Source of the DNA: Hormoscilla sp. GUM202
Lineage (GTDB): Bacteria; Cyanobacteriota; Cyanobacteriia; Cyanobacteriales; Desertifilaceae
Direction: 5' to 3'
Length of the DNA: 64,000 nt
NCBI GenBank assembly: GCA_005518205.2
Contig: RFFC02000004.1
Span: forward strand, 124,001 to 188,000
A model generated the notes under the pieces. It was given only the letters and a program-made list of their open reading frames with translations, did no database searches and had not been told where the DNA came from. The position numbers and the translations under genes are program-made. The number at the start of each line of letters is the position of its first letter. Position 1 is the first letter of the stretch. Positions 75-15,800 of this stretch are shown here, in pieces.

Positions 75-1265
75 CTAGGAAATAGGTTCAACTGCGAACA
101 GCGTCATCATCCCGGCATTCAGGTGATCGTTGACGTGACAGTGGTACATCCAAGTCCCCGGATCGTCTGCTATCATGTCCAGTGTTTTAGCACTCGCTGG
201 AAATATTTCTGTAATGTCCGTCCGGTGCCCTGCGTACAAGAGAGTCTCGCCGTGCCAATGAGGAGTGTGGATATCTACCTCAGTTCCCATCGCCAGCAGA
301 TACCAGCGTACTTGCTCGCCTTCTTTCATCGTCATTCCCTTTAAGTTAGCATAGAGTAAACCATTGATCCCATGCATCAGATTACTCTCGACGAAATCTT
401 CGTCTGATTTTTCGCGCAGCGTGGGGTCTACCGACTCTCCGACAAACTCCTCGATATTTGCATCGATATATAGACTGCTATTTTCGTCAAATACCGTGAA
501 CAGATTGACAAATTCCCGGTCAACCCCGAGGGGCAAACCTGATTTTTTTTGGAGTGTTCCCTGCTTGTGAACTACGATCGCCCCCACCAAACCCGCATTC
601 GTGTCTGCAACCTCGTTGACATGGGAGTGATAGGGCCAGACGATCGAATTGGGATCTTCAGGACCGGGACCTGCCCGATCGGGCACTAGCCAAGTATAAG
701 TATAGCTCTGGCCTGGAGGCACGGCGTCATCCCCCTTATCCTTGAGAGTAGTTCCGTCCTCATAGGGCGTTCCTTCGTTATCCTTGGTGTAGAAAAACCC
801 GTGGGGGTGCAGGTTGAGGTTAAACCGCGTCTGATTGCGAAAATGGATTAAGACCCTATCCCCGACTTCAGCGCGAATAATCGGACCGAGTATGCCCAGA
901 TGTTCTGATGGCGTCCCCGGCTTGCGAATTATTCTCATTTCTCCCGTCTGAGAATTGAGTACCTCATTCGGTCCGTCAATCACTCGGCCAAAATTAGGGG
1001 TGTAAGATCTAAAAACGGCTTTTCTGTAAATCCTTCCGATCCGGTCAGGCCCATCCCCCACGAACACCAGTTGGTCTTCATTAAAGGGTTGCCCTGTCAT
1101 CCGATTGATCGGAAATGACGGCGCATAATCCCAGAGAATTTCCTCTGCGGCGATCCAGTATTCGCGCACTTGCGGCGGATAATGCGTCCGCGCCGGGACT
1201 ACCAGTAACAAGGCCATGGTAACGCTCAACATCATGCTGAGCATGATTAGACTTTTTTTCAGCAT
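75..1265 (-). CDS. Two-domain multicopper oxidase, ceruloplasmin-like
   Basis: Exported copper oxidase of 396 aa made of two cupredoxin-like halves. Residues 4-23 are hydrophobic and look like a signal peptide. All copper ligands are visible: HPHG at 153-156, HSH at 213-215, HTPHWHG at 333-339, and HCH at 375-377 followed by H381 and M386. The trinuclear centre and a type 1 site (H333, C376, H381, M386) can therefore form. Wording around HPHG resembles the ceruloplasmin/hephaestin group more than CueO-type laccases. The substrate cannot be told; metal or phenol oxidation is possible. The ATG at 1265 follows a good AAGGGAG ribosome site. An ISL3 element begins 38 bp upstream and may have cut off the native promoter. 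Confidence 0.88.
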   Translation of the reverse strand: MLKKSLIMLSMMLSVTMALLLVVPARTHYPPQVREYWIAAEEILWDYAPSFPINRMTGQPFNEDQLVFVGDGPDRIGRIYRKAVFRSYTPNFGRVIDGPNEVLNSQTGEMRIIRKPGTPSEHLGILGPIIRAEVGDRVLIHFRNQTRFNLNLHPHGFFYTKDNEGTPYEDGTTLKDKGDDAVPPGQSYTYTWLVPDRAGPGPEDPNSIVWPYHSHVNEVADTNAGLVGAIVVHKQGTLQKKSGLPLGVDREFVNLFTVFDENSSLYIDANIEEFVGESVDPTLREKSDEDFVESNLMHGINGLLYANLKGMTMKEGEQVRWYLLAMGTEVDIHTPHWHGETLLYAGHRTDITEIFPASAKTLDMIADDPGTWMYHCHVNDHLNAGMMTLFAVEPIS

Positions 1266-1303
1266 CGCTCCCTTAGTAATTGCTAATTATTCCTTACTAA
1301 TCT

Positions 1304-2717
1304 GGCTCTTCGGTACTTGGGTTGCTAAACTATTGCTAATTTTGAAAAGCTAATAAACATCTTAGCTCAAAATTTTCTATGTTACGAAAACAAAATCCGC
1401 ACCGTTTAACTAACTTAATTTTTTGGTTAATACCTTCAACAATGCCATTAGTTGTTTTTTGCTCAAAATCTGCTGTTATCTCCACTAACCAGCGACGGAT
1501 TGTTCCTTGACTTTTGGGAAATAATTCTGCTGATTGTTTCAACCATTCTGCTAAATTCAATAAGCCATCAAACCAATTTATGCTCTCTTCAAATACTTTC
1601 CTAAAATTTTCTTTTAATTCATGCATCTTTTGCAGCTTCGGGAATTCTTTATTGACTTCTTCTAATTGGCTTTTTTGAGCTTCATTTAAATCATCGGAAT
1701 TAGCAAGAAGGACATATTTACTGTGATGAAGCACCTTGAGTTTTGCAGTTTTTTTCTTCTTATCATCCATGTTATTAACTTCTTTTTTTGTTTGCTTACG
1801 ACCATTGTCTAATTCTTCTTGAACCTGGTTCATTACATGAAATCTATCAGCTACTACCTCGGCGTGAGGCATTAATTTTTCTACCAAAGTTTTATAGGGA
1901 CGCCATAAATCAATGCTAACCTCTTCTATGCCTGATAACACGTCTATTCCCCAAGATAGCAACACTTTTTCAATGGCTTCTTGGGTTCGATCGGGGACTA
2001 AAGCTAGAAGTTGACTATTGTCCAAATCTACTAATACCGCACAATAATTACCTTGTCCTTTTATCAGGCTAATTTCATCAATCCCCAATCGTTTTAAGTC
2101 TTGAGGTTTTTGACCTACCAAACTTTTTTTTAAATCTTTTAACATAGTTTCAATTTCTGACTCACTTACCCCGGTTCTTTCGGCAACACTTTTAATATTA
2201 CTATGTTTTACCTGATTCAATATATCGTCGGCAAGTCTTTTAGTATAGTTGCGTTTTGGTTCACAAAAATCCAAAGGCTCACTAAAAATTTTTAAACAAT
2301 TTTCACATTTCATTTTTCGTTTATTTACCTGTAAATAAACATTTTGACCATTCATAGGCAAGTCTTTAATTAGATGTGAATAATAGGAGTGAATTTTCTG
2401 ACTCATTTGACCGCAATGAGGGCAGGCTACTTCTGAAGTTAAACTCGCTACGGAGAGGATTTTTCCTAGAGATGTATCTTGTACGAAATGAGTAACTTTA
2501 ACATCTGGGATGTTCAGAAAATCTGTTAGTAGTTTGAGTTGTCCTTTTGAAGCCATGATAATTTTACCTCAGTTTTCACTTTGTCCTCAATTTCAGTAAA
2601 GCATTAAAAATGCCAGAAGTCAAGTACAGCAATATGTTTACTCTTCAAGTATAACAATTTTAGTTTAATTTGACGAGTATTTATTTGATAGTTTAGCAAC
2701 TCAGGTACCGAAGAGCC
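1304..2717 (-). mobile_element. Complete ISL3-family insertion sequence
   Basis: 1414-bp element with 27-bp terminal inverted repeats at 1304-1330 and 2691-2717 (two mismatches, both starting GGCTCTTCGGTAC). It is flanked by an exact 8-bp target duplication ACTAATCT at 1296-1303 and 2718-2725, the size typical of ISL3. It carries one transposase gene and looks intact. It lies in the divergent intergenic region between the multicopper oxidase and the helicase. Confidence 0.95.
1336..2556 (-). CDS. ISL3-family transposase
   Basis: 406-aa DDE transposase filling the ISL3 element. The N-terminus has a zinc-binding CPHC (C45, C48) paired with CENC (C84, C87), as in the ISL3 zinc-ribbon domain, then a helix-turn-helix region (about residues 95-145). 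The DDE domain follows: GIDEIS, IDLWRPY and the terminal VEGINQK glutamate are all visible. Length matches the family and there is no frameshift, so it is probably active. It is read away from the helicase and towards the multicopper oxidase. Confidence 0.95.
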   Translation of the reverse strand: MASKGQLKLLTDFLNIPDVKVTHFVQDTSLGKILSVASLTSEVACPHCGQMSQKIHSYYSHLIKDLPMNGQNVYLQVNKRKMKCENCLKIFSEPLDFCEPKRNYTKRLADDILNQVKHSNIKSVAERTGVSESEIETMLKDLKKSLVGQKPQDLKRLGIDEISLIKGQGNYCAVLVDLDNSQLLALVPDRTQEAIEKVLLSWGIDVLSGIEEVSIDLWRPYKTLVEKLMPHAEVVADRFHVMNQVQEELDNGRKQTKKEVNNMDDKKKKTAKLKVLHHSKYVLLANSDDLNEAQKSQLEEVNKEFPKLQKMHELKENFRKVFEESINWFDGLLNLAEWLKQSAELFPKSQGTIRRWLVEITADFEQKTTNGIVEGINQKIKLVKRCGFCFRNIENFELRCLLAFQN

Positions 2718-2804
2718 ACTAATCTTGACCGCGCTTGGTATAATTAGAAAAATCCTTAAGAAAATTTTTACATTTGCCCGGGGTCACCGGGTAAAATATT
2801 AATC

Positions 2805-5162
2805 ATGCCAGACGATTTTGATTCACACCTTACCCCGAAGTCTGCCCCAGACCCTTCCCTGGCGGCAACTCTGCGCGATCGGACAATAGAAGCGATCGCG
2901 AAGGGCCTGCGATCGGGACAGCGAAGCATGGCGTTATGGCAAGGAGGACCGCTAGCAATTTCAGCGGTTCCCGGATCGGGAAAATCTACCGGGATGGCCG
3001 GGGCCGCAGCGATCGCCGTTGCCCGCCACCAATTGCACTCCCGCTACCAACTGGTTGTAGTTACCTTTACCCGTTCCGCTGCTGCCAGTATCAAAGCCAA
3101 AATTCGCGAACATCTCAAGACATTATCCATACCACAAAATGGCGTTGTAGTCTATACCCTGCATGGTTTAGCCCTGAATATAGCCATGCGCCATCCCGAA
3201 CTTTCCACCTTAAGTCTGGAAACATCGACGATCGTATCTCCTAACCGATCGCACCAATTACTGCGTACCACGGTAGAAAAATGGATAGCAGCCCATCCCC
3301 TCCATTATCAGCGCTTGCTAGAGGGAAATCAATTTGATGGGGAAGAAACAGAACGCCTGCGCCGCCAATCAGTGTTACGCACGGAAGTCTTGCTAGCATT
3401 GGCCTATACAGTCGTTCACGAAGCCAAAAGTTCCGGACTTTTGCCCCAGTATTTAGCAGAAATTGTCGCCACTCAAAATATCCCCGATGAATATCAGATA
3501 TTAGCAGTAGCAGCGGGGCTGTACAAGAACTATCAAACTCTGTTGCGATCGCGTTCTCTGATCGACTACGATGACATGATCTTGGGAGCAATGAGAGTAT
3601 TAGAAGACATCGGGGCGCGGCGCCTCTGGCAAAAGCAAGTATTTGCCGTCTTTGAAGACGAAGCGCAAGATTCCACCCCCTTGCAGACGAGATTATTGGA
3701 GATCCTCGCCGCCGACGCTAACGAAGAAAAACCCCTGAATTTGATCCGGGTAGGGGACCCCAATCAAGCAATTAATTCTACCTTTACACCCGCCGACCCC
3801 ATTTATTTTCGGGAATTTTGCCAAGCTTGCCAACAGCAGGGCAAACTAGCAACAATGGATCGAGCGGGTCGCAGTACCAAAATCATCATTGATGCGGCTA
3901 ACTACATGCTCAAATGGGTAAATAAATACCTGAGTAAGAACGGGTCCCATAAGCAAGCATCAGAACTGCCCTTTAGCGAACAAGAGATTCGTCTAGTTGC
4001 ACCAGGAGACCCCCAACCAGATGCCAATCCGCCCCCAGAAGGAGAAGGATTAGAGTTACAGACGCCCAAAGATATTTACCAGACAGTAGCAGCGATCGGT
4101 CAGCGGATAAAGGATTTATTCGCCAGTCACCCGGAACGGAATGCCGCAGTCTTAGTGCGGACAAATGACCAAGGAAGATTTGTGGCCAGCGAACTGAAAA
4201 ATTTGCATGGCAAAGAAATAAATATATATGAAGTAGCAGAACAGGATCGGCAATCACAGGTTCCCAGGGAAATGCTTTACCTGCTACAATTCATGCAGCG
4301 CCCCCATTCACCCGACGCCTTAAAAGCAGCGCTACAAGTGCTACTAAAGCGACAACTGATTACCTCCCAAGACTTTAACGCCCTGGCCAGTTTGCCAGAG
4401 GAATTTATCTATCCCGGTCCTCTGGATAAGCCACCCAAAGAACCCGTAAAACAGATTCGCCGCTACTGTCGGAGTTTGCTGCGGGCGCGACTGGAACTGC
4501 CACCCTATCAGCTAATTTCTTTCCTAGCCTTGACCTTAAATTATAACCGAAGCGAACTGGCCACCGCTGACAAATTAGCAGAAAGAGTCGCCCAGCAGAC
4601 AATGGGGGATAGTGCCATATCTGTGATGTCAGGGATGCTAAACGTCCTGAATGAAATTGTCAATTCCGAAAGCTTTGAACCAGTGGAAGTTTCGGAAGAT
4701 GATTCTCCCTACAGCAGGCCAAATCAGTTGACCATCATCACCATGCACAAAGCCAAAGGATTAGATTGGGATTACGTGTTCCTGCCCTTTTTGCACGACA
4801 GTACCATTCCCGGGAGTTTGTGGGTGCTACCGCAAGCGCAGTTTTTGGGAGACTTTACCTTATCGGAAGTGGCCAGGGCCCAAATTCGCGCCCACCTGCA
4901 TCAACAACCGCTACCATTGATTGGAGAAGCATGGGAACAGGCGGAATATTTGAAGATAGCAGAAGAATTTCGTTTGCTGTACGTGGCCATGACGAGGGCA
5001 AAGCGCCTGCTATGGATGTCCAGTTGTGGGAAAGCGCCATTTAGCTGGAATAATTTCAATCAGAAACGCCAGGGTAACCTGGAGGATAAAATACCTTGTC
5101 CTGTTTGGCCAGCTTTGAAGCAACGGTTTCCCCAGGCGGCAGTTGTTCTCTCTAAAGTATAG
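2805..5162 (+). CDS. UvrD/Rep-type ATP-dependent DNA helicase
   Basis: 785-aa superfamily 1A helicase. The Walker A motif AVPGSGKST is at 54-62, motif Ia FTRSAAAS follows, the Walker B/motif II DEAQD is at 285-289, motif V MHKAKGLDW starts at 647 and motif VI VAMTRAKR at 727. All helicase motifs are intact, so ATP-driven unwinding or stripping of DNA in repair or recombination is expected. There is no C-terminal nuclease domain. The ATG at 2805 is followed by a polar N-terminus of about 40 residues before the helicase fold. No partner gene is adjacent on the same strand; the downstream sequence is a gene remnant. A role as a GajB-like defence helicase cannot be excluded but is not shown. Confidence 0.9.
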   Translation: MPDDFDSHLTPKSAPDPSLAATLRDRTIEAIAKGLRSGQRSMALWQGGPLAISAVPGSGKSTGMAGAAAIAVARHQLHSRYQLVVVTFTRSAAASIKAKIREHLKTLSIPQNGVVVYTLHGLALNIAMRHPELSTLSLETSTIVSPNRSHQLLRTTVEKWIAAHPLHYQRLLEGNQFDGEETERLRRQSVLRTEVLLALAYTVVHEAKSSGLLPQYLAEIVATQNIPDEYQILAVAAGLYKNYQTLLRSRSLIDYDDMILGAMRVLEDIGARRLWQKQVFAVFEDEAQDSTPLQTRLLEILAADANEEKPLNLIRVGDPNQAINSTFTPADPIYFREFCQACQQQGKLATMDRAGRSTKIIIDAANYMLKWVNKYLSKNGSHKQASELPFSEQEIRLVAPGDPQPDANPPPEGEGLELQTPKDIYQTVAAIGQRIKDLFASHPERNAAVLVRTNDQGRFVASELKNLHGKEINIYEVAEQDRQSQVPREMLYLLQFMQRPHSPDALKAALQVLLKRQLITSQDFNALASLPEEFIYPGPLDKPPKEPVKQIRRYCRSLLRARLELPPYQLISFLALTLNYNRSELATADKLAERVAQQTMGDSAISVMSGMLNVLNEIVNSESFEPVEVSEDDSPYSRPNQLTIITMHKAKGLDWDYVFLPFLHDSTIPGSLWVLPQAQFLGDFTLSEVARAQIRAHLHQQPLPLIGEAWEQAEYLKIAEEFRLLYVAMTRAKRLLWMSSCGKAPFSWNNFNQKRQGNLEDKIPCPVWPALKQRFPQAAVVLSKV

Positions 5163-5199
5163 AGCCATGCTGGAGCGATCGCCATTTCTGCTGCAACCG

Positions 5200-5494
5200 C
5201 CGCACAGAACTGGGAGAAAACTTTCTGGATACAGAAATTCCCGACAGCGTAATAGAAAGGTTAATATCTGCTGCATTGTATGCGCCGTCGGTGGGTTTTT
5301 CTCAACCCTGGGAATTGGTAATTATTCGCGATCCATCAATCAAAGCCAAAATCAAAGCCTGTTTTGAAATAGAAAATGAAAAAGCTAAAAAAATCTTTAA
5401 GGATCGACCGTTATATAGGCGGTTAACACTAGAAGTAATTATGAAAACTCCAGTGAATATTGTGATTCCTTGGAAGATGCGATCGCCTCCTTGA
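5200..5494 (+). pseudogene. Remnant of a BluB/nitroreductase-family gene
   Basis: One frame reads a continuous stretch resembling 5,6-dimethylbenzimidazole synthase (BluB): RTELGENFLDTEIPDSVIE, then APSVGFSQPW, VIIRDPSIKAKI and EVIMKTPVNIVI, ending at a stop near 5494. BluB proteins are about 220 aa, so roughly the first 25 and the last 120 residues are missing. No start codon with a ribosome site is present; the sequence runs into the end of the helicase gene. It would have made the lower ligand of vitamin B12 from FMNH2. It is clearly non-functional. The alternative is another nitroreductase-fold enzyme. Confidence 0.7.
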
Positions 5495-5553
5495 AGGCAG
5501 AAATGCTAAAATTGTTCAAGGCATTGTCGGTAGTTTGAAATCGACAGGTGAAA

Positions 5554-5630
5554 ACCTGCCGTCTGTGTCCCAAGAGATGGGTGAGACAATATTAAATCAC
5601 CCATCTCTTGGGACATAGCAGACGAGGTGG
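5554..5630. repeat. Long palindrome (hairpin)
   Basis: Perfect 19-bp inverted arms at 5566-5584 and 5597-5615 around a 12-nt AT-rich loop, extended after a 3-nt bulge by CGTCTG/CAGACG. It lies between a forward remnant and the end of the reverse dynamin gene. It could act as a bidirectional terminator, but there is no clear T tract. Confidence 0.7.
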
Positions 5631-5643
5631 GAACATCTCACTT

Positions 5644-6687
5644 TTACGGGAACTCGTCTTTAGCTGACATCCAGATGTCTGTGCGTTGGATCGAGATTTC
5701 TGTTTTTTCTATTTGTGCTTCTACCTCTGGTACTAAAGACTCAAGTTGCGCTACCAGTTTCTCTTTGTTTTTGAGATCTAGAGCCTGATCGAACTGAGCC
5801 TGGATTAAGCTGTCTTGGTAGTTGCGCAGATAACTGTCAAGACCTTTAAAGAAAGCATCAACTCGCCCCTGTAAATCCTCTTCAAGGTACTGGTTGATTT
5901 CTTTTTCCATATTGCCAAGACAAGTTGCAACCGACTGATTGATCTGCTGGATCAGTTCTTTAAGGGAAACGATATAATAATCTTCTGTCTTGTCCGGTCG
6001 CTTTTTCTCTTCCGTGACTTCGATCGGCACAATCCAGAGCCAATGCCACCAGACTCGCTTCCTTTTGGTCACTTCGTAAAAACCGCCGTCTATCACCCGA
6101 GTATCCTGCTTAGCGGTAAACTCTACAGAATCCATGGCATCAACTTTCAAACTCGGGGGAGGCAACGACAAATCTACATTGAAAGCTTCTTTAAGTCGGG
6201 TTTGCGCTCGCTCGATAATCGGCTGAGTCTGTTTTTTCAAGAAGTCGATCAGATTTGTCCGGGCTTGCCCGATCTCTTCTTCGGTCTTTTCACGGAAGTT
6301 TGCTAGCAAACTTTCGGCTTTCTGTTTAGCGTAAACAACAGACTGCTCGGCAAATTCGTTGGCCTCAGTCTCTGATTTAAACTCAAACACACCGGAAGGC
6401 TTAAACTCTAGGGAAGATTTAATTCGTTCGGAAATCCACTCAGGGAAAAATGTAAAATTTGCTGGTCCGATATCTTTAAACAGCAATGTCCTGATTGCTA
6501 TATCTATTTTCTGCCACCAGTCAGCCCTTTGTTCATCCTCGCGTATAAAGTACTCTTCAAGGCTGACTTTCGCTACTTTTTCGAGCTTTCCAAATAGCTC
6601 TTTAAGGTTGCTACGGAGTCTTCCCACAAATACTGCGCTTCCTCTTTCAGGTCTTCTACGTTCGTTCTCTGAAGTTTCGCTTCCCAC
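5644..6687 (-). pseudogene. Dynamin-like protein, C-terminal part after frameshift
   Basis: 347-aa open frame continuing the GTPase gene at 6573-7835 in another frame. It is mostly alpha-helical and charged, as expected for a dynamin stalk, with coiled-coil-like stretches (for example LVAQLESLVPEVEAQIEKTE near the end). A short aromatic segment, RVWWHWLWIVPIEV (about residues 214-227), may be the membrane-binding paddle. The first 25 or so residues look like out-of-frame translation; native-looking sequence begins at LKELFGKLEKVAKV. The change of frame is in the overlap, close to 6600-6640, and looks like a one-base indel. Joined together the protein would be about 730 aa, a normal length for bacterial dynamins. 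Confidence 0.75.
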
Positions 6688-7835
6688 CTGTTGCCCAATG
6701 CCTCCCGAGCAAGCGCCTCTGCTGTCTCCATCTCCGCAATCTCTACTCCGGGGCGCTGCTGTAGTTCCAACAGGAATTTAGTCGCGGAGAATGCCTGGAT
6801 AGCTGAAACTTCAAACACTCGGTCGCTGTCGCTTTCCTCGCTCAGATCTAGATCGGCAGCGACAAACTGCTGCACCTGCTCGGGGGTCATGTCACCTGGG
6901 CGGCGCTGATCGATCTTATTAACAAGGACATAGAGGTTTTCTTTCCCCAGCAAATTTATGACGGGCTGCACTTGCTTTTTAATGTCTTCCGCAGCTTTAT
7001 TGTTGAGCTGGGTGAAGTCTAGAACAATCAAGATGATTGAGCTTCGCCTTAGTTGCTCCGCCACCACAGCCGTCAGTCTGAGGTTTTCTCCTGCTTCGTT
7101 TGGCCCGGGCGTATCGACTATTACCAGATTGCCCAACTTGTCCGAGCTACTGTCCGGTTGCTCAATTTTTTGCGCTCGCAAAAAGGGCGTCTCAATTGAA
7201 GGAACAGTAAAGAGTTTGCCTGCGGGATCTTGGGACGGGTTGAGAATGCTGCACAGGCGGACAATATCGTTTAGCTCCGCCAGGGTCTTCATAATCTCCT
7301 CTCGCCCAGAGGTTTCTGGGTGTGGAAACCCTAGCGTCTCTTTGATTTCCTTCACCAAATCCTGTAGATGCGGATACTGACCTAGTTTCTCCTGGGTTTG
7401 CTCCGGCCCTAATTGCTGAATCTTCTCCTTTAAACTTATAACTGTCTCTTGGAACACTGTCAGTATTTCCTCACTCAACCTTAAGACCGGCCGATCGAGT
7501 TCTGCCTTAAAGACAATCTCAGTGGGAATGGTCGTCATCGCTGCGTTGCGGCTGGGCAGCAATTCCTTGCCTACGATCGCATTGATAATGGTGGACTTGC
7601 CAGCCTTCATCGGCGCGACAATCGACATTGTTAGCTTCAGATTTTCCACATTCGGGATGGCCTCATCGACTTCCCGCTTAAATTCCTCGTACTTCTGAGC
7701 GGATCTGTCTAAGCTGAGGGCGGTGCTAGCGCGGTCCATCAGAGCGCTGATTTGCTTCAAAAGATCGATGACGTCCGCTTGCAAGTCCTGCACCTTGGGC
7801 TTTCGCGGTTCGGAGTTTATCTGCAGATTCTCCAT
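6573..7835 (-). pseudogene. Dynamin-like GTPase, N-terminal part before frameshift
   Basis: GTPase half of a bacterial dynamin-like protein. It shows P-loop APMKAGKST, switch threonine in TTIPTEIV, G3 DTPGPNE and G4 NKID, spaced as in the family. A long insert between the G2 and G3 motifs is typical of bacterial dynamins. The start chosen is ATG 7835 (MENLQINSEP); the longer upstream frame begins with an unlikely leader. The frame ends in ESSKK shortly after LWEDSVATLK, where the C-terminal frame takes over. Such proteins remodel membranes and some protect against phage; the neighbouring ATPase/TOPRIM pair on the same strand fits a defence setting. Real mutation and sequencing error cannot be told apart here. 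Confidence 0.8.
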
Positions 7836-8135
7836 ATACTCGTTATACTCGTTTTTTCTCCTATAGCATAACACCCTGGCGAGGATTAAGTAGGTGAGCA
7901 CAATTAAATTCAACGGCAGTAAATTCTTTTTGATTTAGCTGAAAGCCGCTCCCAGAAAAAGGTTCAGCCATTTTTCCATTCCTTTTTGATTGGCCAACGT
8001 TTCAGAGCTAAGGATAAGAAGACGCCTCTTGACCCGGTGCCTTGGCTATCTACGCTGGCTAATGGTCGGCAACGCACGCTCCACCGTATCGGTAGCTTGG
8101 CGCTAGAGATAACATTTATTTTAAGTAAGGTCCGG

Positions 8136-8696
8136 TTATAGTAAATTTTGAATGCGCCTTTGCAACTCCTTGAGTTCGGGACACCGATCTAGGAGCCCGC
8201 GATAATTCAAGAGCGTCTCCCGCATCAAAGCCTCCCGCCCTCTGCCTGCAATTTTAGGATCGCCTTCTCGATCGAGGAAGTCTTCAAAAACATTTTCCTT
8301 AACGCTGATATCAGCGCGGATTTCCGACCAGGGCGTATCTAGCTTATCCAGATGTCCGGCCAAGAGCCATGCTTCCACTTCTTGAACTGCCGCACAGCAC
8401 AATAAATTAACTCCTTTAGCCATTGCTTCTCCTTCCAAAGAAGCAAATTCCTGGCTGCGGTCTTTGCCATCGGCATCTGGGAGAAACAGCAGTAAATCTT
8501 TGTAAGCATAGCGTTCTATAACAACCTCTCTAATCAAGTATTTGGCATTCTCATAGCCGCTAGCTTTGGGATCGGTCATCAGAGCAACTCGTGAATTGGG
8601 CTTGCCGCATTCCTTCATCATCCTTTTAATCAATGGGATAAAAATGTAGCCATTATTGGTGGGGTCTTCAGAGATTACTAACAGGTTGAAGCTCAT
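8136..8696 (-). CDS. Stand-alone TOPRIM/DUF4276-like protein
   Basis: 186-aa protein with a TOPRIM-like pattern: an early glutamate in VISED (E10), the DxD motif in LFLPDADGKD (D74, D76), and glutamates in VQEVEAWLL (E106, E108). The EVEAWLL wording is typical of DUF4276 proteins. TOPRIM domains of this kind cut DNA with two metal ions in OLD-family nucleases, so nuclease activity is inferred. Its ATG overlaps the stop of the upstream ATPase gene as ATGA (8693-8696), implying translational coupling and a joint complex. An unrelated regulatory role is possible, because no activity can be read from sequence alone. Confidence 0.65.
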   Translation of the reverse strand: MSFNLLVISEDPTNNGYIFIPLIKRMMKECGKPNSRVALMTDPKASGYENAKYLIREVVIERYAYKDLLLFLPDADGKDRSQEFASLEGEAMAKGVNLLCCAAVQEVEAWLLAGHLDKLDTPWSEIRADISVKENVFEDFLDREGDPKIAGRGREALMRETLLNYRGLLDRCPELKELQRRIQNLL

Positions 8697-9916
8697 ATTA
8701 CCCCTCCCTCAAACCATCCTTCAGCTAACAGATCGCCAAGAGGATGCCGAGGCGCAATTTTTAAGAACTGGGTAATTTCGCTTAGGGGAACTATTCGAGT
8801 GGCTCCTGTTGCTTCATCTCGCTTACAAACAAAAATAGTCGAGTAATGTTCTGGACCCAGCCAATTCAAGAGTTGGGGCGATCGGGTAATAGCGATCGCC
8901 TGGATGGGGAGATGGCCGGACAAATTAGCCAGCAACTCCACTAACAAGCGCATTTTGCTTGGGTGAATGCCAGTTTCGATGTCTTCAAGGGTTAAAATTG
9001 CCGGGTTATCGGGCTGAAAGAAAGCCGCTGTTATAGCAGCAAATCTGAGAGTGCCATCGGCTAAAACGGGAGCCGGATAATGATGACCCCTATCTGCGAT
9101 GGCAAACAAAGGTTCTCCCAGGGCCCCTTCTAAGATACAGATATCGTTCAAGTCATCTGGCATTAACTGCTCCATCCAGGAGCGGAAAGCAGTCTTTTCG
9201 CCTTCGTCAGCGATAATAGTTTTGACCAAAGCCGCAAAATTTTCCCCCCGATCGCCCATTCTTTTGACCGCACGGTGCTGGGAATAATTCCGTAATGTCG
9301 CTGGATCGGGAGCCAGGTGCTGCATATTGCTCAAAGTCCGGATACAATGCTTTAGATAAGTAGCATCGAGTTCCGAACATATGCCGTCTCCCAGGAGCTG
9401 ATGGAGCACCGGTCGAGAGCGGTCAAATTTCCGGCGATCGCCGCCATTGTAGAGAACTTCTAATCCTCCGCTACAAGCTGTAGTATCGAGTATTTCTGCT
9501 GCAAAAACTGGCCGGTTTCCTATCAGCAGCTTCTCCCTCGCCACCCAACCGCGATCGGCGGATATGCTGATATAATATTTTATATCTTCACTGGATTTAT
9601 TTGGGTACTTCAGGGTTGCTGAAAATCTAATTTCTCGGTTTTTTCCATTTAAGGGAGCATCGCCGCGCCGGACAAAGTTAGCTTGACTGCTGCCCCCGCG
9701 AATTGCCTCCCACAGGTCGCTATAGGCAGTTTTGGGTTTGCCATTAAATATTTCATCTATTGTTAATCCGTAACCGATACCCTGCAAGACTCGCAGGCCA
9801 TCAAAAAAGTTAGACTTCCCGCTAGCATTGGTGCCGCTCAAAAAATTGAGGTTCCCCAGAGTTAAGCTAACTTTTTCTAAAGTTTTGAATCCTTCGATCG
9901 CGATCGCAGTTATCAT
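8693..9916 (-). CDS. AAA15/RecF-like ABC-type ATPase
   Basis: 407-aa ATPase of the SMC/RecF/OLD class from the start chosen here, ATG 9916 (MITAIAIEGFKTLEK). It has the P-loop GTNASGKSN close to the N-terminus, a signature-like LADGTLRFAA, and Walker B ILTLEDIETGIHP with its catalytic glutamate. The usual switch histidine of TTHSP is replaced: the sequence reads ITRSPQLL. The longer frame from 10015 begins inside a mobile-element end (MGASHFRTG), so it was not used. The gene is coupled to a downstream TOPRIM gene. Together they resemble an OLD/GajA nuclease split into two proteins, or a PARIS-like pair. A defence role is inference. Confidence 0.8.
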   Translation of the reverse strand: MITAIAIEGFKTLEKVSLTLGNLNFLSGTNASGKSNFFDGLRVLQGIGYGLTIDEIFNGKPKTAYSDLWEAIRGGSSQANFVRRGDAPLNGKNREIRFSATLKYPNKSSEDIKYYISISADRGWVAREKLLIGNRPVFAAEILDTTACSGGLEVLYNGGDRRKFDRSRPVLHQLLGDGICSELDATYLKHCIRTLSNMQHLAPDPATLRNYSQHRAVKRMGDRGENFAALVKTIIADEGEKTAFRSWMEQLMPDDLNDICILEGALGEPLFAIADRGHHYPAPVLADGTLRFAAITAAFFQPDNPAILTLEDIETGIHPSKMRLLVELLANLSGHLPIQAIAITRSPQLLNWLGPEHYSTIFVCKRDEATGATRIVPLSEITQFLKIAPRHPLGDLLAEGWFEGGVI

Positions 9917-10013: not shown

Positions 10014-10157
10014 ATGAGTATTTACTATATTTTACCTCAAGTTGCGATCGGATAATTAATTATTGGAAAATTTTCCTGAAATCGAGAATAATGATGAAGG
10101 ATGAACGATAAATTAATAATTTTCCGTTCATCCACGCTTATCGTCTCCAGAATAATT

Positions 10158-11227
10158 CTAAGCGCTCATCTCTAACATCCGCTGAATCGGTCGCAAAGCG
10201 GCTACCCGAATGTCCTCTGCCATGGTAATCTCGGGAGTGCGATGCTTCATCGCCAAATACAACTTCTCCAAAGTATTCAACCGCATGTGAGGACATTCGT
10301 TACAAGCACAGTTGTTCCTTGGCGGTGCGGGAATAAACTGCTTACCAGGGGTCTGTTTTTCCATCTGGTGAATGATTCCGGGCTCCGTTGCCACAATAAA
10401 TGCTTCGCTAGCACTATAGCATTTCTCGAAATTATGAGGTACAGCATCCAGCGATGAAACCCAGTAAGAGCAAGGCTTTCACTGTACCTCACCTTATTGA
10501 GAAGTGCTATAGATGAAGCGTACTTCAACAGGGCCGTTGTCGATCCGACATAGCTAGCGTGGCGCAGTACGGACGGTTCGCATTCTGGATGGGCAACGAT
10601 CTCCGCTTCTGGATGGGCAATTTGCAACTGAACGATCTTCTTTTCCGAGAAGGTTTCATGCACCATACAGCTTCCTTCCCACAATAGCATCTCTCGTCCC
10701 GTTTGCTCCATCACGTATCTCCCCAAGTTGCGATCGGGGGCAAAAATTATCGGTCTATCTTCGGGAATTTGACTGACTATCTTCACGGCGTTAGAACTGG
10801 TGCAGATAATGTCGCTCATCGCCTTAATCGCCGCAGAGCAGTTGATGTAAGAAACCACAACATGCTGGGGATGAGCGGCTTTGAAAGCAGCAAAGGCATC
10901 TGGCGGACAACTATCCGCCAGAGAACAACCCGCGTTTAAGTCTGGCAATAGCACCAGCAGGTCTGGGTTGAGGATTTTTGCCGTTTCCGCCATAAAGTGG
11001 ACCCCCGCAAACACGATGGTATCGGCGTCGGTGCTGGCAGCTTGCCGGGACAGTCCCAGGGAGTCTCCGATGTAGTCAGCAATGTCCTGAATGTCCGGTT
11101 CTTGGTAGTAGTGGGCCAGAATCACGGCGTTTAACTCCTGTTTCAGGGCGGCGATCGCCTCAAACAGGTCTAGAGGAAAGGCTGGTGTCTGAATAGCGTC
11201 TGGTTGAACGAGTGCCGTTGTAAACAC
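10158..11227 (-). pseudogene. nadA: Quinolinate synthase NadA, interrupted by a 93-bp element
   Basis: NadA condenses iminoaspartate and dihydroxyacetone phosphate to quinolinate in de novo NAD synthesis. The first part (11227 to about 10512) reads a normal NadA including [30 protein letters not shown] and [13 protein letters not shown]. The last part (about 10414 to 10158) carries [18 protein letters not shown] and the cluster ligands in [11 protein letters not shown]. Between them lies a 93-bp inverted-repeat element with a TA duplication; 95 extra bases shift the frame. Removing the element and one TA joins KYASS to [11 protein letters not shown] in frame. Without another copy the cell would need nicotinate or the nicotinamide salvage route. 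Confidence 0.93.
10417..10509. mobile_element. 93-bp MITE inside nadA
   Basis: Terminal inverted repeats of 28 bp (TAGCATTTCTC at the left, TAGCACTTCTC at the right when reversed, both followed by a spacer and TGAGGTACAG). It is flanked by TA at 10415-10416 and 10510-10511. TA duplication points to mobilisation by an IS630/Tc1-mariner type transposase. Its ends differ from those of the two IS630 copies in this window. It has no coding capacity. Confidence 0.85.
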
Positions 11228-12887: not shown

Positions 12888-15800
12888 TTATTCTTTTTCT
12901 TTGACAGACCGCCATGCAGCGGTCATGCGGGAGAAATTGGTAGTGGTTAAACTAAGCCTGAGAGTCACCTCTCCGACTCGTCTTCAGAACCGGACATGAG
13001 ACTTTCACCTCATCCGGCTCCTCGATCAAGCCATCCTTGTCATGGATACGGCAACTGCCATCACGGGCAGTCTTTCTATCGTGGCAATGCTTGTGCAGTA
13101 GCTGGATTTTGTTCCACCAGTCCTTACCACCTAATGATAGTGGTTTAATGTGGTCAACCTCCCATTTGTCCTCATTCATGAACGTTAGTCCGCATTCTAG
13201 GCATTTTCCTTTTTGCTTCTTAAGTAGCTTGGCTACCCTTTGGTTTAGCTCGGGGTTTTTGCCTAATCTTGTACTCCAATATGCCAGATTACCATCGTAT
13301 GCGCTCGCTTCTCCTTTGACTTTTGTGTGCCTGACTATTTCTACATTGCTGTGTCGTAGCAGCACCATTTCTCCCTCTTTAGTCTTACACCAGAATCGCC
13401 ATTGTCTATCCTGGCCGATCGACCAGTACTTCTTGGCTATCCAATGCTTTGACTTGTTCGGGTGTCTTCTCTTTGCCCAGTTCCACAGGGTCTCCCATAG
13501 GTAGGAGTCCATATCCGAGTAAGTTTCCTTGCTTACTACTGTTCTGAAATAATTTGACCATCCGCGTATTATCGGGTTTAATTTACTTATTAATGCCGCA
13601 AGCGGTGCATTCCTGTGTTCCTTCACTACGCTTGATAGTCTTTCCTTGTGCCTACCTATGGATTCCTTGCTTGGTTTGATTAGGGTTTTGAATCCTAGGG
13701 GTTTTCCATGTCTGTTCTTGCCTGTGTAATACTTTCCTATCTCATACTGTCTCACGTTGAATCCAAGAAAGTTAAATCCCGGATTTTCTCCCTTCAACGT
13801 ATGAGTAATCTGTGTTTTCTCATGTTTTAGCTCCAACCCTATTCCTCTCAACCAATCCGCTATGACCTTTTGCGCCATTTCAACCATCTCTTTGTCCTTA
13901 TGCATTACCACAAAGTCATCAGCATATCTGACTACTGTCAGATTTTGTCGCTTAACAACATTGTTTCCTGCTAAGGATTTTACTTTTTCTTCTAATCCAT
14001 GTAGGGCCACATTTGCCAGCAGAGGCGATATGACCCCACCCTGGGGAGTTCCTTCCGTTGTCTCGAACATTTCCTTCCCATCTATCACACCTGCTTTTAG
14101 CCAGGCGCGTATTTGTCTACGTATGATAGGTAGGGTATTCAATTTTTCCAACAGCGCTTTATGGTCAATTCTATCGAAGCATTTGGCTATGTCGGCATCT
14201 AAGACCCATTTGGCCTTTTGATTGATGCTGCTAAATATTGCTCCGATTGCATCATGGCACCCTCTACCTGGCCTAAAGCCGTAAGAATTGGCCTCAAAGT
14301 ACGCTTCCCATTCCGGTTCTAGCGCACTCTTCACCAGTCCTTGTAGTGCTCTGTCATACATTACGGGTATTCCTAATGGACGCTTTTCTGTCTTTCCTGG
14401 CTTTGGTATCCAGACTCTTCGAGCTGGTTTGGCCTTGTTTCCGACTTTAAGCTCTCTTACCAGTTCCAATCTTTGCTCTGGGGTCAACGTCTTCACGCCA
14501 TCCACACCGGCAGTGTTCTTCCCTTGGTTGTCTTGTGTCACCCGTCTTACCGCCAGACACTTGGCAGACCAGGATTTGCTTAGTAACCTCTGGAGTTTGC
14601 GAACTGTACGCTTATCACCACGTTGTGCCGCTCTGTAAATTCGTTTTTGCAGCTTGAAGACTTTCCTCTCTAGCTTTCGCCAGGGAACTGCCCTCCATTC
14701 ATTCATCGGTTTATTTACCGTGCTCATAACGTTTGTACTGTTACTCACAACTTTACATTTGACTTGATCGTGAGGGCGTCAGCTTCTCCTGTCCATTACA
14801 GACAGGCATTTGCTTCTCCGCTCAATCCTTCCCAGCTATGACCTGCCAGATGTAAGCAGATGTTGCGCCTTTGGTGGCTACTCTATCTATCGACCGGTGA
14901 TAGAGAGTACATAACCGGGTTACTTCGTTCCTACAGACGATTGGTTGTAGTTTTAGATGGGTTCTCTCCGCCGGGTTTATTGTCAGTGCTTGTTGGTCGG
15001 AGAATTACCCGCCAACGACCTGTATCCTTTCCCTTTTTGGGCCAGTGCCTGCACATTTCTGTGCTACAGCCTTATTACACTGGTTGTTGGTGACGACGTT
15101 TGTGAACCTTCGCTTACGCTCATCATGACTACTTGCTCGACGTTAACCAGTTTAGGCTACCAGTCAGAGCGCCTTTCATTCCCGCTTTATGGATTGATGC
15201 CATCTCTACCATAGGGAATGTGCTGTCATTCCTGCACCTGGACGGGTGGACTTGCACCACCATCATCTGTAAGTTGTCAGGGCTAATGGAACCCTGCTAG
15301 TGGTCCCCCACCTTGTTTTACACCGGTGGTTTACACTAAACGAATCACACAATTCTGCCCAACCTAGCAGACTTCCCGGGACTTTTTCCTCCCAAGAGGC
15401 TGAGAGGAAGCCGTAGCTCAATCCCAAGATGCCCAACCCAAAACAACCTATACTGGTCAGAAGCACCGCCACATTGGGCAGCTTGAACTCAGTGTAGACA
15501 TATATGCCATAACTGACTCCAAAAGTCAACATGCCCAATGCGGTCGGTATGCCGCACAATAGAGCCATCCGCCGCACCATCCGCTTGCTGACAGCTTCTG
15601 GGATGGCCCTGGTCGGGGTCGAGCTGAGAGTCTCCTCTCAACCCTCCCATTCGGAACCGGACTTGCGACTTTCACCGCATCCGGCTACTGGTTGGTAAGC
15701 CGATGTCACTGGTAGCCGTTGATTGGATTACTCCTTTCTGGCCTTGTCCCATGAAATTTCTCCCCTTCTGGTGGTCGTAATTGACTAAATTTATGCCTAA

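Follow-up and report, generated by a model that had tools for sequence, protein, structure and literature searches.

The genome of the sponge-associated cyanobacterium Hormoscilla sp. GUM202 (assembly of 6,869,623 bases in 70 contigs) carries a two-gene unit in which an ABC-type ATPase of the OLD/AAA_21 kind overlaps a separately encoded TOPRIM-fold protein. We identified the unit in the window, the 64,000-nucleotide stretch of DNA analysed here. The pair is related to PARIS, Gabija, HEC-01 and PDC-M07 but is a variant distinct from all four, and it falls outside these named systems because its TOPRIM partner is captured by no library model at threshold. Its ATPase is of the PDC-M07A type, but its effector differs.

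Both open reading frames lie on the minus strand at the positions given by a first-pass annotation of this DNA, and the ATGA overlap described there is present in the sequence, the start codon ATG of the TOPRIM gene sharing bases with the stop codon TGA of the ATPase gene. A Shine-Dalgarno-like stretch, GAGGGAGGGG, sits a few bases 5' of the TOPRIM start. The ATPase begins with MITAIAIEGF; because its homologues begin with MITxLRL, we placed its start at the ATG at 9916 and discarded an alternative ATG at 10015. The features of the unit are as follows.

8693-9916, minus strand: ABC-type (OLD/AAA_21) ATPase, 407 amino acids, proposed sensor and antitoxin (PDC-M07A, AAA_21, AF2 model)
8136-8696, minus strand: TOPRIM-fold nuclease-like protein, 186 amino acids, proposed effector and toxin (conserved residues, AF2 model)
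8693-8696, minus strand: ATGA stop/start overlap, translational coupling (sequence; NTGA in homologous pairs)
8701-8710, minus strand: GAGGGAGGGG, Shine-Dalgarno-like, before the TOPRIM start (sequence)
9809-9835, minus strand: Walker A of the ATPase, residues 28-36, GTNASGKSN, intact (invariant or nearly so, 78/78)
9059-9061, minus strand: ABC signature, S286A (Ser in 80/81 homologues)
8981-8986, minus strand: Walker B, E311 kept, second acid E312D (Glu at 312 in 79/81 homologues)
8963-8965, minus strand: D-loop His H318, kept, OLD-type (81/81; OLD D-loop His according to PMC7049728)
8882-8884, minus strand: H-loop H345R, codon CGA, TRSP motif (His 79, Gln 2, Arg 1 of 82 homologues)
8667-8669, minus strand: TOPRIM catalytic Glu E10 (79/79)
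8469-8477, minus strand: TOPRIM DxD, D74-A-D76 (83/83)
8373-8381, minus strand: TOPRIM ExE, E106 and E108, at the position equivalent to the OLD metal-B D/S-x-E (84/84; OLD ligands from PMC7049728)

Scanning 84,980 species, each represented by a single genome, we found the ATPase+TOPRIM pair at 80 loci, and on one viral contig. The 80 loci fall in roughly twelve or more phyla, including Cyanobacteriota, Chloroflexota, Pseudomonadota, Acidobacteriota, Myxococcota, Planctomycetota and Nitrospirota. Pairing is obligatory, with the ATPase gene directly upstream of the TOPRIM gene in 81 of 81 loci. Of 84 homologous pairs, 76 have the two genes coupled through an overlap at NTGA; these come from many phyla, so the overlap exceeds chance. 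The two proteins also co-evolve: their pairwise divergences correlate with r=0.918, as against a permutation maximum of 0.307. The proposal of a two-gene, split OLD-like ATPase/TOPRIM unit is borne out.

Flanking genes are not conserved: of the 117 flanking ORFs at the 80 loci, at most 2 have any given Pfam family in common. The pair by itself therefore makes up the unit, and we found no conserved third gene among the loci. Nor is the pair tied to housekeeping genes, as its neighbours at these loci are mutually unrelated. Defence genes among the flanks are few and of the restriction or DISARM kind (DrmMI twice, DrmA, and type III and IIG methylases) and the other neighbours are mostly ordinary metabolic genes, so the neighbourhoods argue only weakly for a defence island. 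At one acidobacterial relative, a type III-like N6/N4 DNA methylase gene (L062, 6187-8766) overlaps the ATPase start by 4 nucleotides, a possible methylase-ATPase-TOPRIM operon.

The unit is patchily distributed and mobile. Within the host's order, the TOPRIM protein is present in 9 of 195 genomes, and members of the window subfamily share 55-61% identity with their counterparts in Acidobacteriota, Planctomycetota and KSB1, a level that suggests horizontal transfer. One copy is carried by the Brasilonema plasmid pBOCT1. Another (L141, IMGVR_UViG_3300036393_000014, 861-9864) has tape-measure, sheath and further tail genes as its neighbours, the context of a contractile-tail phage or a tail remnant. 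Viral contigs searched with the ATPase as sole query yielded no relatives, and none was found in a phage genome collection searched with the TOPRIM protein.

The description of the larger protein as a RecF-like ATPase was confirmed by matches to Pfam AAA_21 (9.4e-19), AAA_15 (3.7e-9) and the RecF-like SMC_N (7e-6), and its AF2 model (pLDDT 90) adopts the fold of an SMC/Rad50/PtuA head (Z about 20). Among the PADLOC models, PDC-M07A ranked first (1.7e-49, residues 1-401), ahead of HEC-01A (1.6e-30) and AriA (2.4e-19), with weaker matches to AbiLi (9e-16), Old and GajA (8.5e-8). PDC-M07A models matched 30 of 30 tested ATPases, the best at 1.3e-75. The hallmarks of an OLD-type ATPase, namely Walker A, the Walker B acid, the D-loop His and the H-loop His, are present throughout the family; the window copy retains Walker A, Walker B E311 and D-loop H318, and has Arg for the H-loop His.

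This last change, first seen as TRSP in place of the usual THSP, is real, and Arg at residue 345 occurs only in the window copy. A single-base sequencing error is unlikely because the codon, CGA, is two bases away from both His codons, CAT and CAC. Three further changes accompany it: S286A, which lies in the signature, as well as E312D and T343I. Across 49 near-invariant ATPase columns, the window copy deviates in 6, the related copy on contig C8 of the same genome and in the sister genome G127 in 7, and that on contig C17 of the window genome in 8, compared with 0-3 in all others; the window TOPRIM protein has 0 deviations over 26 near-invariant columns. In Thermus OLD, an alanine mutant of the H-loop lacks ATPase activity, and the corresponding mutant of P2 Old lacks killing, while Asn occurs naturally at the OLD H-loop position (PMC7049728). 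From sequence, the four substitutions (S286A, E312D, T343I and H345R) argue that ATP hydrolysis by the window copy is probably impaired, such that it would bind ATP and hydrolyse it poorly. By analogy, it is possible that the protein acts as a binding-only sensor, as has been argued for GajA, which binds ATP and probably no longer hydrolyses it (PMC12796447). The unit in the window may also be latent or beginning to decay.

The smaller protein had been described as TOPRIM/DUF4276-like, and its motifs and predicted topology support the TOPRIM assignment. E10, D74, D76, A103, E106, E108, K133 and R154 show no or almost no variation across about 84 homologues, and the AF2 model (pLDDT 96.3) runs beta1 - E10 - alpha - beta2 - alpha - beta3 - D74xD76 - alpha - beta4 - E106xE108. 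This order is that of TOPRIM proteins, with the Glu after beta1 and the DxD after beta3 that mark the superfamily. The pattern E...DxD...(D/S/E)xE is common to the small protein and to the OLD proteins of Thermus and P2, in which the metal ligands are E377/D431/D433 with D381/S478/E480 and E398/D453/D455 with E402/D541/E543, respectively (PMC7049728). D11, near E10, could serve as a second metal ligand. DUF4276, in contrast to the TOPRIM assignment, was matched below threshold (E=0.0079, 16.9 bits, gathering cut-off 30.2), with matches at E up to 0.01 in 4 of 45 homologues, and we dropped it as a family name.

In PADLOC, HEC-01B gave a weak match (1.8e-4) and AriB no row at E up to 1; Pfam and PADLOC searches returned no sequence match to AbiLii or RloB. 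A PDB sequence search with the TOPRIM protein found nothing, and Foldseek with its model found no PDB match below E 0.001. The best VIA row was 2p62 (Z 9.9, 168 residues, rmsd 4.2), and the C-terminal region of Xcc OLD (6njx) was listed at Z 7.2 (159 residues, rmsd 4.8), a value within background; the VIA second-look rows contain no RloB or AriB structures, and this absence carries no weight. The top viral fold match was an RloB-like protein (E 1.3e-3, probability 1.0, TM 0.54). The protein constitutes a separate TOPRIM subfamily.

Split OLD ATPase+TOPRIM pairs are already known as a class that comprises PARIS, AbiL, RloAB and HEC-01 (PMC12839542, PMC12409363). The first-pass annotation had linked the window pair to OLD, Gabija and PARIS, and membership of these systems proper was not borne out, given the separate TOPRIM subfamily and the rank of AriA and GajA relative to PDC-M07A. 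PARIS (AriA/AriB; Class 4 OLD), whose defining traits include a hexameric ATPase that sequesters a tRNA-cutting TOPRIM protein, shares the split genes, and a sequestration-release logic is proposed for both, but AriA fits the window ATPase far less well than PDC-M07A and ranks well below HEC-01A, and the small protein has no AriB match. Gabija and Class 1-2 OLD contain the same two modules with the same pattern of catalytic residues, but on one polypeptide, whereas the genes of the window-type pair are unfused in all loci and have no linked helicase. HEC-01 is likewise a two-gene ATPase and DUF4276-like TOPRIM system, and its motifs follow the same order, E / DxD / ExExW; its ATPases, however, form a separate clade that excludes the window ATPase, and profile-profile comparison of its TOPRIM with the window family reached only 40-47% probability. 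AbiL and RloA-RloB are also bicistronic, with an AAA ATPase and a TOPRIM_OLD toxin, and the RloB-like fold match recalls them, but AbiLi is a distant match to the window ATPase and AbiLii and RloB are not matched in sequence. TOPRIM_OLD toxins of the RloB kind are neutralised by AAA ATPases in NetFlax experiments, and RloB is related to OLD_TOPRIM (PMC10440598).

PDC-M07 belongs to the PADLOC putative candidates, which are mostly unvalidated (PMC12988326). It has the same ATPase family and the same order of adjoining genes as the window pair, but the second gene, PDC-M07B, looks from its D..E..D motifs like a PIN-like nuclease where the window pair has a TOPRIM protein. Of 120 genomes from the order, 22 have a match to the PDC-M07B model (PDLC04394); in the window genome it matches only on contigs C6 and C24, where it follows paralogous ATPases in bona fide PDC-M07 pairs (C6 111286-113000 and C24 24377-26093; L169, L171). 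In the ATPase tree, HEC-01A stands apart (support 97) from a group containing PIN-paired and TOPRIM-paired ATPases, within which the PIN-paired ATPases form one clade (support 99). A first tree suggested that the TOPRIM-paired ATPases are paraphyletic to these (support 90), but a single clade is compatible with the data (p-AU 0.62), so either TOPRIM or PIN may have come first.

The dynamin-like GTPase gene reported next door is present (CrfC-like, 5644-7913, minus strand; match of 2.5e-52 over the N-terminal part). It is split by a frameshift into ORFs 6573-7913 and 5644-6687, is absent from the sister genomes and has no homologue at any other pair locus, and on these grounds we rejected it as a component of the system. 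A UvrD gene (2805-5162) was likewise rejected as a GajB-like partner, since it lies on the opposite strand and has only two weak, distant matches at other loci. The pair's neighbourhood and the window genome as a whole are rich in mobile elements. A transposase-like gene (1336-2556, minus strand) and a reverse-transcriptase/HNH ORF resembling those of group II introns (12952-14748, minus strand) flank the pair region. The gene nadA (10277-11227, minus strand) is interrupted and frameshifted by a MITE-like element of 99 bp (10414-10512) whose inverted ends measure 31 nt; the site is empty in sister genome G167 (L055, near 4761), about 14 related copies occur in the window genome, and a second nadA-like 3' end is found on its contig C27.

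The window genome contains a second, divergent and intact pair on contig C17, a close paralogue on C8 that is broken by an IS insertion and a frameshift, and a remnant on C13. In the sister genomes, of which Hormoscilla sp. SP12CHS1 is one, the orthologous locus is truncated and frameshifted (G167) or reduced to fragments (G127). Short decayed TOPRIM remnants, with DNA 84-90% identical to the window gene, occur on C13 (119343-119576), on contig C146 of G127 and on C6 of G167 (1153653). Relative to the C8 paralogue, dN/dS is about 0.17 for the TOPRIM gene and about 0.09 for the ATPase gene, with synonymous sites near saturation; these low values show that both genes were long under purifying selection, as averages over a long time that are compatible with recent relaxation or decay.

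Loss within the order runs in one direction. The TOPRIM gene is lost or broken next to an open ATPase gene in G189, in G075, on contig C64 of G127 (nonsense) and in the C8 paralogue; in G189 (L039, 2293-2439) residues 21-164 are deleted in frame from a TOPRIM gene that immediately follows an intact ATPase gene. Two close ATPase relatives, L030 (G096) and L036 (G075), are orphans with no detectable adjoining TOPRIM gene. The reverse case, a broken ATPase with an open TOPRIM frame, was not found within the order, and this asymmetry fits an ATPase antitoxin and a TOPRIM toxin. Counter to a strict antitoxin role, the ATPase frame is disrupted and the TOPRIM frame intact at four MAG loci (L086, L101, L112, L131), possibly through sequence errors.

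We favour, as on balance probable, a self-contained, horizontally moving split-OLD toxin-antitoxin or abortive-infection module similar to AbiL and PARIS. For such a module we infer a complex, a trigger and a substrate as follows. The translational coupling, the obligate pairing and the co-evolution of the two proteins speak for an ATPase-TOPRIM complex, in which the ABC ATPase (8693-9916) would oligomerise, bind ATP and keep the TOPRIM nuclease (8136-8696) inactive, coupled translation enabling assembly. A phage-derived signal or a nucleotide change acting on the ATPase would then free or activate the TOPRIM protein, which would cut nucleic acid by two-metal catalysis and stop the infected cell. 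The likelier target would be RNA, for example tRNA, rather than DNA, given that a PIN nuclease takes the same position in the sister ATPase clade. PIN nucleases are mostly RNases. As for the earlier suggestion of a two-gene defence or repair system, the two-gene unit stands, and we infer defence over repair from kinship, mobility and patchiness.

The same residues also suit an OLD-like DNA nuclease that works like GajA and OLD: a TOPRIM DNase, loaded or gated by the ATPase, would nick the DNA of phages or DNA that has been damaged. The TOPRIM ligands fit the OLD pattern E / DxD / (D,S)xE (PMC7049728), the Xcc OLD C-terminal region appears among the VIA rows, and GajA has probably lost hydrolysis while binding ATP (PMC12796447), as the window copy may have. 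We nevertheless regard this as unlikely, since a related clade of the same ATPase family is paired with a PIN nuclease, there is no conserved helicase partner, and the Xcc OLD match does not rise above background. A repair or chromosome-maintenance function is much less probable still: a RecF/SMC-type head with a TOPRIM partner resembles RecF-RecR, and OLD-family ATPases can act outside defence, as with the cell-cycle protein Cran1 (PMC12796447), but this unit is patchy, multi-copy, plasmid- and phage-borne and often broken, has no repair-gene neighbours and retains its TOPRIM nuclease ligands.

It is also possible, though doubtful, that the window copy is non-functional: acquired long ago, it would be on its way out of a sponge symbiont's genome, and its ATPase changes would reflect drift. 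The decayed orthologous loci of both sister genomes, the broken copies on C8 and C13, the excess of ATPase changes in the Hormoscilla copies and the abundance of mobile elements are all consistent with this. Against it, both window ORFs are fully open, the TOPRIM protein keeps every near-invariant residue, and dN/dS relative to the C8 paralogue is low, albeit as a long-time average compatible with recent decay.

Our results define a widespread, unannotated ATPase+TOPRIM cassette that defence-finding models miss or mislabel, because its ATPase scores as PDC-M07A and its nuclease has no model of its own. We tentatively suggest that one ATPase sensor family swaps its effector between TOPRIM, as in the window pair, and PIN, as in PDC-M07, implying a common RNA-cleaving output, and that, independently, the copies in Hormoscilla have become, or by drift are becoming, sensors that bind nucleotide without hydrolysing it, as proposed for GajA. 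TOPRIM and PIN versions of a single ATPase family offer a direct handle on what the sensors recognise and on RNA versus DNA as output, and the natural H-loop and signature variants offer one on whether ATP hydrolysis serves restraint or release.
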